Shown one piece after another: positions 1,608 through 30,037 of a DNA stretch of 38,820 bases; within the stretch, counting starts at the first letter, position 1; every line of letters starts with the position of its first letter. The notes beneath the pieces are model-generated. The model ran no database searches and had not been told where the DNA came from. It was given only the letters and a program-made list of their open reading frames with translations. Origin of the DNA: Gammaproteobacteria bacterium (GTDB lineage Bacteria; Pseudomonadota; Gammaproteobacteria; PS1; Pseudothioglobaceae); the NCBI GenBank assembly GCA_008080915.1, contig VMDI01000060.1, forward strand, positions 1 through 38,820. Direction: 5' to 3'. The translations under genes were made by a program, and so were the position numbers.

Positions 1608-1666
1608 TTATAGTTATTTTTTAACTAATTATTAAAGATATATATACATGTATAAAATAACTATAA
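1608..1666. repeat. Perfect 13-bp inverted repeat TTATAGTTATTTT (1608-1620) / AAAATAACTATAA (1654-1666), flanking the 12-bp palindrome TATACATGTATA (1643-1654)
   Basis: Read directly; the right arm overlaps a TATAAT box (1662-1667) upstream of the ATG at 1700. Confidence 0.75.
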
Positions 1667-1667
1667 T
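1662..1667 (+). promoter_or_regulatory. Candidate -10 box (TATAAT) of the HTH-nadE gene
   Basis: Exact TATAAT 33 bp upstream of the start codon; no good -35 hexamer, so possibly activator-dependent. Confidence 0.45.
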
Positions 1668-1699: not shown

Positions 1700-3574
1700 A
1701 TGGCTCCAAAAACATCTGAATATCTTGCTAGAGTAAGGGAAAAGACTGGTTTATCTGATTATGCTATTTCTAAGAAATATAGTATTAATCAGTCAAATTT
1801 GAGTAAATATAGTTCTGGTAGATCTGCCTTATCAGAGACACATGCTTGGTTATTTGCAGATTTATTAGGTATTAACCCAGCTGAAGTAGTTGCCTATACC
1901 AAAATTGAGCAAGCAAAAATTACGAAGAATAAAGAGAAGCTCAAATTTTGGGAAAATCAGCTTTTTAAGATCAATAATGATCAATCACCAATCAAAATAA
2001 AAATTGCCCAAATAAACCCCACTGTTGGCGATTTGAAAAATAATAGTCTTCAGATTATTTCTGCAAGTCTTGATGCAGCTAATGAAGGATATGATCTAAT
2101 AATCTTTCCCGAACTTGCTTTAACTGGATACCCACCAGAAGATCTTCTTCTTCGCCCAGAATTTCATTCTGAAATTAATTCCTGCATACAAGAAATTTCA
2201 GACAAGGTTGGATTTACAATAAATCTTATATTTGGAGCTCCAGAATACTCGAATAATCTTATTTATAATTCTGCCTATCTTTTGCAAGATGGTATTTATA
2301 AAACCTACCGTAAACAAATATTGCCTAATAATGGGGTATTTGATGAAAAACGTTATTTCTCGAGTGGTGATAGCCCCTTTCTTTTTGACTGCAAAGGTCA
2401 CAGATATTCAATTTTAATTTGCGAGGACATATGGCACGACAACATGTTGGACCAAGTTGCCAATCTTGGTGCTCAGAATGTTATTGTTTTAAATGCCTCT
2501 CCATATCATCTTGGAAAACACCAAGAAAGAATTAATGTTTTAAGAAATAGCGTTTTAAGAAACAATATTAATCTTATTTATGTCAACCTGGTTGGTGGTC
2601 AAGACGAACTTGTTTTTGATGGTGGATCTTTCGTGATGAATAATAAGGGTGAATTAACACTTCAAATGCCTTTCTTTGAAGAATCTATTCAAGATTTTTC
2701 TTCTCATGATTCTGCTCCGAATAACATTGAGATAGAAAATGTCTACAAAGCGTTAGTTTTATCTATTAAGGACTATGTAAATAAAAATGGAGTTTTTGAT
2801 GGAGCCATATTAGGCTTATCTGGAGGTATTGACTCTGCTCTCACACTTGTATTAGCTGCAGATGCTCTTGGTAATGAAAATATTACTGCAGTTATGATGC
2901 CATTTACCTATACTTCATCCGAGTCTATCAGGGACGCACGAGAACAAGTCAATCTGATGGATATTAATTATCAGGAGATTGAAATTAACCCAATCTATGA
3001 TCAGATGATTCACCAACTAAATCCATTGTTCAATAACTTACCTCAAGATACAACTGAAGAAAATATTCAATCAAGAATCAGAGGTAATCTTTTAATGGCA
3101 ACATCTAATAAGCTGGGTAAGATTTTACTTGCTACCGGTAATAAATCTGAAATGGCTGTTGGCTATGCAACTTTGTATGGAGATATGTGTGGTGGTTTTG
3201 CTCCGCTAAAAGATATTCCTAAAACAATGGTTTATGAGCTTGCAAAATATAGAAACTCTAATGGTCATGTCATCCCACAGAATGTTATTGATAGAGCACC
3301 TTCCGCTGAGTTAAGCCCTGATCAAATTGATGAAGATTCTCTACCACCCTACTCAATTCTTGATCAAATTTTAGAAAGGTTTATTGAGTTAAGACAATCA
3401 TCACAGGAAATAATTGAATTGGGTTTTGATAGAGAAACAGTTAAAAGAATTACAAAACTAGTTTTAAACAATGAATTTAAGAGAAGACAATCTGCTCCTG
3501 GCCCGAAAATCAGTAAGAATGCCTTTGGTAAAGAAAGAAGATATCCAATAACCTCAGGCTTTTACTCCTCTTAA
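1700..3574 (+). CDS. nadE: Glutamine-dependent NAD+ synthetase with N-terminal phage-type HTH (DUF3693-like) domain
   Basis: Residues 1-90 (MAPKTSEYLARVREKTGLSDYAISKKYSINQSNLSKYSSGRSALSETHAWLFADLLGINPAEVVAYTKIEQAK...KFWENQLFK) are HTH-like. From residue ~98 (IKIKIAQINPTVGDLKNN): nitrilase-type amidotransferase (FPELALTGYPPEDLLLR; YRKQILPNNGVFDEKRYF; ILICEDIWHD) and NAD synthase P-loop SGGIDSAL. No in-frame ATG between the domains. Confidence 0.93.
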   Translation: MAPKTSEYLARVREKTGLSDYAISKKYSINQSNLSKYSSGRSALSETHAWLFADLLGINPAEVVAYTKIEQAKITKNKEKLKFWENQLFKINNDQSPIKIKIAQINPTVGDLKNNSLQIISASLDAANEGYDLIIFPELALTGYPPEDLLLRPEFHSEINSCIQEISDKVGFTINLIFGAPEYSNNLIYNSAYLLQDGIYKTYRKQILPNNGVFDEKRYFSSGDSPFLFDCKGHRYSILICEDIWHDNMLDQVANLGAQNVIVLNASPYHLGKHQERINVLRNSVLRNNINLIYVNLVGGQDELVFDGGSFVMNNKGELTLQMPFFEESIQDFSSHDSAPNNIEIENVYKALVLSIKDYVNKNGVFDGAILGLSGGIDSALTLVLAADALGNENITAVMMPFTYTSSESIRDAREQVNLMDINYQEIEINPIYDQMIHQLNPLFNNLPQDTTEENIQSRIRGNLLMATSNKLGKILLATGNKSEMAVGYATLYGDMCGGFAPLKDIPKTMVYELAKYRNSNGHVIPQNVIDRAPSAELSPDQIDEDSLPPYSILDQILERFIELRQSSQEIIELGFDRETVKRITKLVLNNEFKRRQSAPGPKISKNAFGKERRYPITSGFYSS

Positions 3575-28081: not shown

Positions 28082-29113
28082 ATGAGTACTAAAAAAGTTG
28101 CAATATTAGCTGCAGGTACTGGTGGTCACATTTTTCCAGCACTTGCTGTGGCAAAAGAGCTCCAAAAAAATGGGGTCGATATTCTCTGGATTGGCACCAA
28201 AAGTGGCATGGAAAATAAAATTGTTCCTGAGCATAATATAAAAATCAATCAAATTGATGCCATAGGTGTCAGAGGTAAAAATCCTATCAAGGTTTTTCTA
28301 TCTATCTTCAAACTATTTCAAGCATTCCTTAAGTCTTATCAAATTCTTAAAAATAACAAGCCTGATGCGGTTCTTGGAATGGGTGGATATGTCTCTGGCA
28401 TTGCTGGATTGGCTGCTTTTTTTAGAGGCATACCTATAATCATTCAAGAGCAGAATGCCATACCTGGAACTGCAAACAAATTAATCTCCAAAATTAGTAA
28501 TAAAGTTTTTCAAGCTTTTCATGGAACATTTCCTATCAAGCTCAAGCCGATTACTTCTGGCAATCCTGTTTTTGTAAAGTCTTTAAAAAAGACTAAAAAT
28601 AATTCAGATTTTAATCTTTTAATTCTTGGTGGTTCACTTGGAGCAAAACCCATTAATGATGTGGTGATTCATCTTGAAAATAATATCAATATCTTGCATC
28701 AGACTGGAGATATGCATATCAATTCTGTTAAAAAGTCTCACCTCAATAAATCAGCAAAAGTGGTAGGATTTATTGACGACATGTCTAAGGCATATCAATG
28801 GGCAGATATAGTAATATCTCGAGCTGGAGCCATGACCGTTTCCGAGTTAATGTTAACTGGTACACCAGCAATATTGATTCCACTACCTCATGCAATTGAT
28901 AATCATCAATTTTATAACGCAAAAATACTTTCTGATAATGGGGCTGCCATTCTTATAGAGCAAAAAGATTTAAGCGCAAAAAAACTGAATGACTTAATCT
29001 CTAATCTTACTCAAGAAAAACTTGATTCTATGAGCCAGAATGCTAAGAAACTTGCCTCACCTAATGCCTCTAAAATTATCTCTGAGTGTCTATTAGAGTT
29101 AATTAATTCCTAA
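28082..29113 (+). CDS. murG: UDP-GlcNAc:MurNAc-pentapeptide-PP-undecaprenol GlcNAc transferase
   Basis: [76 protein letters not shown]. Confidence 0.96.
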
Positions 29114-30037
29114 ACTGGCAAATAATTCTTGATCTTTGTTTTGCGCAACATTAGGAGTTGTTAGCAGCTCATCTCCATAGAAAATCGAATTAGCTCCAGC
29201 AAAGAAGCAAGTTGCCTGCATCGATTCACTCATGTCAGTCCTCCCTGCAGAAAGCCTCACCACCGATTTTGGCATGACAATTCTAGCCACAGCAATACAT
29301 CGAATGAAATCAATTTCTGAGGGCTTATCGGCAAATTCAAGAGGAGTCCCAGGAATAGGAACTAGAAGATTAATTGGAACAGAATCAGGATGATGCTCCA
29401 TATTGGCGAGTGTTTGAAGCATAGAAGCCCTATCTTCAACTCTTTCACCCAAACCAAGAATTCCACCGCTACAAACGTTAATACCGGCTTTATGGACATT
29501 TTCGAGAGTGTCAATGCGATCTTGAAAGCATCTCGTTGTAATTACATTGGAATAGTGCTCTTTAGAGGTATCAAGATTGTGATTGTAATAATCAAGCCCC
29601 GCCTCTTTTAATCGGTTGGCTTGCTCAGATGTTAGCATGCCCAAAGTGACACAAGACTCCATATCAAGAGATTTCACTACTTTGATCATATCAATTACGC
29701 GATCCAAAGATTTATCTGTCGGGTTTCTCCATGCTGCTCCCATACAAAAACGCTCTGAGCCATTTTTCTTTGCCTGAAGCGCTGCATCCCTAACTTCTTC
29801 GAGGCTCATTAATCTTTCTCTTTCAAGCCCAGTGTCATATTTTGAGCTTTGCGAACAGTATGAGCAATCCTCAGGACATGCACCTGTCTTAATATTCAGT
29901 AGTTGACTCACTTGGACCTTATTAGGATCAAAGTTTTCACGATGAATGGTATGCGCTTTGAACAACAAATCATTAAATGGCATTGAGAATAATGCATTTA
30001 TTTCATCTAATGACCAATCATGTCTAATTTCTGTCAT
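29099..30037 (-). CDS. bioB: Biotin synthase
   Basis: Radical SAM motif [72 protein letters not shown]. Confidence 0.97.

Follow-up and report, generated by a model that had tools for sequence, protein, structure and literature searches.

The window, the whole stretch of 38,820 nucleotides that was analyzed, carries an HTH-NadE fusion gene at positions 1700-3574 of the forward strand, which encodes 624 aa from an ATG start with no internal stop. The product begins with an XRE/Cro-C1 helix-turn-helix (HTH) domain (residues 1-92; positions 1700-1975, forward strand), followed by a nitrilase-type glutaminase domain (residues ~98-330; 1991-2689, forward strand; CN_hydrolase, E 4.5e-24) and a NAD synthetase domain with an SGGIDS P-loop (residues ~346-622; 2735-3565, forward strand; NAD_synthase, E 3.9e-74). 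An initial sequence-only reading had described one uninterrupted ORF joining an HTH to a full NadE, and this was borne out by the translation, by Pfam and by the NCBIfam NAD+ synthase model PRK13981 (residues 97-622, 720.7 bits against a cut-off of 479). We confirmed that the ORF is a lambda-repressor-like HTH joined to a complete glutamine-dependent NadE, and it is the sole full-length NadE of the genome. The only Pfam domains over cut-off were HTH_3, CN_hydrolase and NAD_synthase. NadR carries NMN adenylyltransferase and ribosylnicotinamide kinase parts; the fusion has neither domain by Pfam, and identity with NadR was rejected. Identity with NrtR was likewise rejected, as Pfam gave no Nudix-like domain and no C-terminal winged HTH.

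The HTH assignment was supported by sequence profiles and by predicted structure. HTH_3, which the sequence-only reading had proposed to check, matched residues 9-62 with 28.2 bits when the domain was scanned alone (cut-off 23, E 1.9e-6) and just at the cut-off in the full-length protein. PHROG 4441, annotated as "HTH DNA binding protein", matched residues 4-88 (E 4.9e-14), and PHROG 638 also matched this part. The proposed DUF3693 type did not hold, with no Pfam match even at E≤10 in the window HTH, three relatives or a standalone homolog, although HMMER filters drop most matches above about 0.1. AlphaFold2 placed helices at residues 5-16, 20-27, 31-39, 46-56, 60-75 and 78-92 in helix-turn-helix geometry (mean pLDDT 88.5 for the isolated domain), with the recognition helix at about residues 31-39 (QSNLSKYSS). 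Foldseek matched the domain to the lambda-repressor-like proteins ImmR, DdrO and C.AhdI with probability 1.00 and to lambda repressor with 0.99, the best E value being only 7e-3.

A separation between the two parts had been placed after residue 90 with a linker of about 8 aa; the separation stands, and its limits shift slightly. In the AlphaFold2 model residue 92 lies near the end of the last HTH helix and residue 100 near the start of the first NadE strand, which gives a linker of about 5-8 residues. No ATG lies between the domains, as had been reported: the next methionine after the start is residue 249, deep within the nitrilase domain, and the window gene has no in-frame ATG, GTG or TTG at residues 60-110. 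The nitrilase Glu-Lys-Cys triad (E138/K205/C241) and the P-loop (S374-G-G-I-D-S379), both read as intact from the start, are kept in 73/73 relatives.

The nearest solved relatives of the enzyme part are bacterial glutamine-dependent NadE proteins of ~540 aa, those of Acinetobacter baumannii (5kha) and Burkholderia thailandensis (4f4h), by sequence and by Foldseek of the whole chain. The B. thailandensis enzyme has been placed in the dimeric type-2 cluster (PMC7196632), and by sequence the fusion's enzyme part appears nearest to dimeric (type 2) NadE-Gln. An octamer, suggested by the sequence-only reading, does not fit this resemblance to the dimeric class, and a model with up to eight HTHs was dropped.

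Distribution and origin of the fusion

We searched for the fusion across 84 genomes of the order, comprising one family and 11 genera. This order is apparently the SUP05/clam-symbiont group of small-genome gammaproteobacteria. The fusion was matched in 74 of the 84 genomes, including all 50 of high quality, and nearly all matches align from the first residues. One high-quality genome (G433) has a disrupted HTH start, where unrelated sequence breaks the region before residue 40 (L075), and another genome (G440) has an in-frame TAA near codon 69 of the HTH part (L058); either may be an assembly error. In G018 only a contig-end fragment of the fusion was found.

No fusion was seen outside the family: among the matches listed from a draw of 369 gammaproteobacteria, all non-family ones start at query residue 69 or later. 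We note that the listed matches are the best ones, that outgroup coverage is a sample, and that HTH-NadE fusions with unrelated HTHs would escape the searches used. A GTDB scan for relatives returned only NadE without an HTH, from a set in which the window's own relatives are possibly absent. In a tree of the catalytic part, the fusions all fall on one side of a branch with support of 100/99, and the window is the deepest fused lineage. The tree indicates that the fusion arose once.

The origin of the HTH itself had been read as capture of a phage-like domain. An ancient fusion of single origin with a phage-type HTH agrees with this, whereas a viral relative did not emerge: two IMG/VR scans confirmed none, phage tblastn gave weak partial matches only (39% over 60 aa, E 2e-3), and a search of plasmids gave none. 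In two draws, the HTH profile (E≤1e-6 to 1e-7) matched nothing outside the family except short standalone proteins, each time in single genomes. Two other gammaproteobacteria (L152:1500-1830 and L129:307-681) have small standalone regulators with this type of HTH, which share a similar C-terminal helix and W motif. In one genome, a standalone 84-aa HTH (L086:2505-2759, G011:C117) matches the NadE HTH profile with E 3.7e-31. The gene downstream of it reads as ribonucleotide reductase NrdA, and a weak operator-like site (9.2 bits) directly precedes this HTH, which would be either a relic of the donor or copied from the NadE head.

Inverted repeats in the nadE promoter

Side-by-side comparison of promoters first revealed a recurring inverted repeat, TAGKTA-N5-TAMCTA. 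In the order, most nadE promoters carry two to four copies of it, placed around the -10 box and upstream of that box. We described it with a palindromic position weight matrix (PWM) of core GKTA-N5-TAMC flanked by TA. In the window, predicted operator O2 (TATAGTTATTTTTTAACTAAT, positions 1609-1629; 16.4 bits) contains the exact palindrome TAGTTATTTTTTAACTA at 1611-1627, and predicted operator O3 (TACATGTATAAAATAACTATA, 1645-1665) scores 17.3 bits, the best PWM score within the window. A weaker, operator-like site upstream, O1 (ATTATTTAAAAAATACCTTAT, 1591-1611; 9.3 bits), agrees in position with O1 of relatives. The right end of O3 is overlapped by a probable -10 box, TATAAT (1662-1667, forward strand). 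Outside g3, a genus with its own site positions, TATAAT occurs at about -40 in 48 of 51 promoters, usually overlapping or abutting the right end of O3. Some promoters have a good -35 box 17-18 bp before TATAAT (TTGACA in L011). Because the window has a weak -35 box, the promoter geometry is taken from relatives.

Site positions follow a regular pattern across the order. Measured from the ATG, most genera have site centers near -102, -83, -47 and -27; those of genus g3 are near -99, -54 and -35. Spacings cluster at 19-20, 35-36 and 45 bp. To avoid testing a model on the promoters from which it was built, we trained PWMs across genera. The PWM from g3 found sites in 44 of 50 promoters of other genera compared with 2.3% of dinucleotide-shuffled sequences, and the PWM from other genera found sites in all 21 g3 promoters compared with 3.8%; kinship inflates these counts, as related genomes do not contribute independent sites.

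The repeats are also largely specific to this promoter, as judged by pattern searches of the genomes. In the genome of the window, O2 is the sole occurrence of the exact palindrome pattern. Across the 84 genomes, the exact palindrome TAGKTAWWWWWTAMCTA has 12 sites, 11 of them directly upstream of nadE. The half-relaxed form GGTAWWWWWTAACTA has 97 sites, of which 81 (in 56 genomes) fall in the 250 bp preceding nadE, stretches that make up very little of what was searched; the remaining 16 are single and mostly inside ORFs. A reversed control pattern gave 0-2 matches per genome and strand. No site was found in the nadE promoters of 19 genomes lacking the fusion, nor any operator array at the nadA and nadB loci in ten genomes of the family. 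The divergent gene beyond the promoter varies between genera while the operators persist, which indicates that the sites belong to nadE. Conserved operator-like sites in its own promoter are expected of an autogenous regulator, or trigger enzyme, with a DNA-binding domain, and nadE has them.

Single sites were seen elsewhere. The one stray exact palindrome lies between the convergent ends of gyrB-like and leuS-like genes. At window positions 29094-29114, where murG-like and bioB-like gene ends converge, a single operator-like PWM match (14.0 bits) is probably due to chance. One good site (18.2 bits; L090:988-1008, G412) stands just upstream of a purE-like gene, with no array. No Rfam element was found in the window.

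Selection on the HTH domain

With the exception of one clade, purifying selection acts on the HTH. Five genus groups gave dN/dS values of 0.03-0.12 for the HTH, similar to those of the enzyme domains, and the mean top-residue frequency of the HTH was 0.82 compared with 0.69 for the glutaminase. No other near-invariant stretch is as long as the recognition helix, with N30-Q31-S32-N33-L34-S35-K36 conserved at 99-100% over the family.

A clade of symbionts with 1.0-Mb genomes (L028, L030, L031 and L073) showed a different pattern, which we count as one evolutionary event, not four. Here HTH dN/dS was 1.02 (bootstrap 0.60-2.06), while the glutaminase and synthetase remained at 0.088 and 0.095, suggesting that the enzyme does not need the HTH in this clade. 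None of the four genomes retains O1 or O4, and their O2 is either weakened or gone. O3 has bases in common with the -10 box and is partly kept. The promoters of these genomes are four of the six missed by the cross-validated PWM. The frame through the HTH is nevertheless open in all four, with every catalytic residue kept, as expected if translation must pass through the HTH to reach NadE. Ordinary genes of clade I clam symbionts have dN/dS of about 0.16-0.35 (PMC5310779); if the 1.0-Mb clade corresponds to these symbionts, an HTH value close to 1 cannot be put down to the genome as a whole. These patterns indicate that the HTH and the operators were released from selection together, a natural experiment tying the domain to the sites.

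Proposed autoregulation and comparison with known systems

With matching sites found almost only before nadE, it is very probable that the enzyme shuts down its own synthesis. Our best explanation, which we hold with good confidence on comparative sequence evidence, is a bifunctional NAD synthetase whose XRE-type HTH binds the repeats of its own promoter and represses nadE. The N-terminal HTH would bind the inverted-repeat array, the two HTH heads of one NadE dimer reading one palindrome; with neighboring sites spaced by about two helical turns, the dimers bound to them would together occupy the core promoter. A repressor seated at O3 and the -10 box would block RNA polymerase; plentiful NadE would shut the gene, and diluted NadE would reopen it. 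We infer repression rather than activation only because O3 and O4 lie over the core promoter. The sequence-only reading had proposed that the enzyme controls transcription directly, and this gains strong comparative support, with the breadth of targets narrowed to nadE itself. Since nadA and nadB lack an operator array, HTH-NadE looks like an autoregulator rather than a regulator of a NAD regulon, with nadE as its only detectable target. The standalone HTH paralog in one genome (G011) counts against this explanation.

Whether a ligand gates repression divides two versions of the proposal. In the simpler one, repression is proportional to NadE concentration and has no ligand gate. The regulon of one gene favors it, as simple autorepression is enough to hold an enzyme level constant, and we consider that it has a substantial chance of being correct, if somewhat short of an even one. 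However, dimeric type-2 glutamine-dependent NadE is allosterically inhibited by NAD+ elsewhere, an inhibition relieved by P-II (PMC7196632), and repression could be coupled to this ligand signal. A gate of this kind, with the enzyme part binding NAD+ or NaAD, is plausible. We tentatively suggest, as a possibility we would not yet call probable, a one-gene homeostat in which NAD+ or NaAD at a regulatory or active site alters HTH geometry, coupling catalysis, feedback inhibition and nadE transcription, and which replaced a nadE-linked P-II system. By sequence and fold the fusion belongs to the same enzyme class as these P-II-controlled enzymes, but their control is post-translational and P-II is often encoded beside nadE. 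In a simple motif search, a P-II-like gene adjoined nadE at 7 of 19 outgroup loci compared with none of 73 fusion loci, and P-II genes persist elsewhere in the fusion genomes. That the HTH replaced the local nadE/P-II arrangement is speculation.

Other readings separate the HTH from the repeats. A separate regulator could read the inverted repeats while the NadE HTH serves nucleoid association or protein contact, since any AT-rich palindrome can serve another factor. We consider this unlikely: the sites are specific to one promoter, whose gene carries the HTH; they are missing from the nadE promoters of the 19 fusion-free genomes; and HTH and sites decay jointly in one clade while the enzyme does not. 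XRE proteins also commonly autoregulate, which counts against a separate regulator. The ORF could yield two products, the full fusion and a NadE started internally near residue 95, as the relatives L014 and L020 have an ATG at codon 96 and 45 of 73 relatives have some GTG, TTG or ATG at residues 60-110. Yet the junction has no conserved start codon, the window gene has none in that interval, and the frame stays open in the 1.0-Mb genomes despite a neutral HTH, making this quite improbable.

An HTH that is in frame, never lost and highly conserved might instead be a structural or allosteric enzyme part that does not bind DNA, conserved for folding or oligomer contacts. This reading seems very improbable to us, as the HTH is neutral (omega 1.02) in the 1.0-Mb clade with both enzyme domains at ~0.09 and catalytic residues kept, as the most invariant stretch is the recognition helix, and as NadE of this type functions elsewhere without an HTH. 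An assembly artefact or chance fusion in one genome, conceivable for an assembly that is 86% complete in 90 contigs, is refuted by identical architecture in more than 70 genomes, many of them single-contig.

Autorepression by HTH-NadE would resemble several known systems in part. NadR, a NAD-pathway enzyme with an HTH, represses NAD genes; it occurs only in Enterobacteriales and has nadA-pnuC as its core target, with nadB, pncB and niaP in some (PMC5343134). In the fusion, NadE takes the enzyme's place, and no target is visible besides the gene that encodes it. NrtR and NadQ also exert transcriptional control within NAD metabolism of Proteobacteria, each with a related C-terminal HTH, but the effector domain of NrtR binds ADP-ribose, that of NadQ is different, and neither protein is a NAD synthetase (PMC5343134). 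The nearest in kind is BzdR, in which an HTH-XRE domain lies N-terminal to a shikimate kinase fold (PMC3602430). Natural BzdR is no longer active as an enzyme and regulates genes for benzoate degradation, whereas the fusion keeps all catalytic residues and its predicted target is its own gene. The Q1 chimera, a laboratory-made bifunctional enzyme-repressor with an HTH and an active kinase (PMC3602430), is the laboratory analog of natural HTH-NadE. Fusions of a restriction endonuclease with its controller (C protein) also set a small regulator on an enzyme, there a restriction enzyme and here one of core metabolism (PMC3850674).

The sequence-only reading had supposed the architecture undescribed, and we found no description of it in the literature searched, with subscription papers mostly outside the search. 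In a survey of NAD synthetase architectures in over 800 genomes (PMC3376133), the terms HTH and DNA-binding are absent. Few enzymes double as repressors, and in cases such as BzdR catalysis is gone. Across the present order, a cofactor enzyme that is still intact bears a repressor-type domain of its own; the operator is visible, the origin single, and in one lineage HTH and operator decay jointly. Domain capture is a route to gene control whose evolution this system makes directly testable, and HTH-NadE would add a further, NadE-based route to NAD homeostasis in small-genome organisms.
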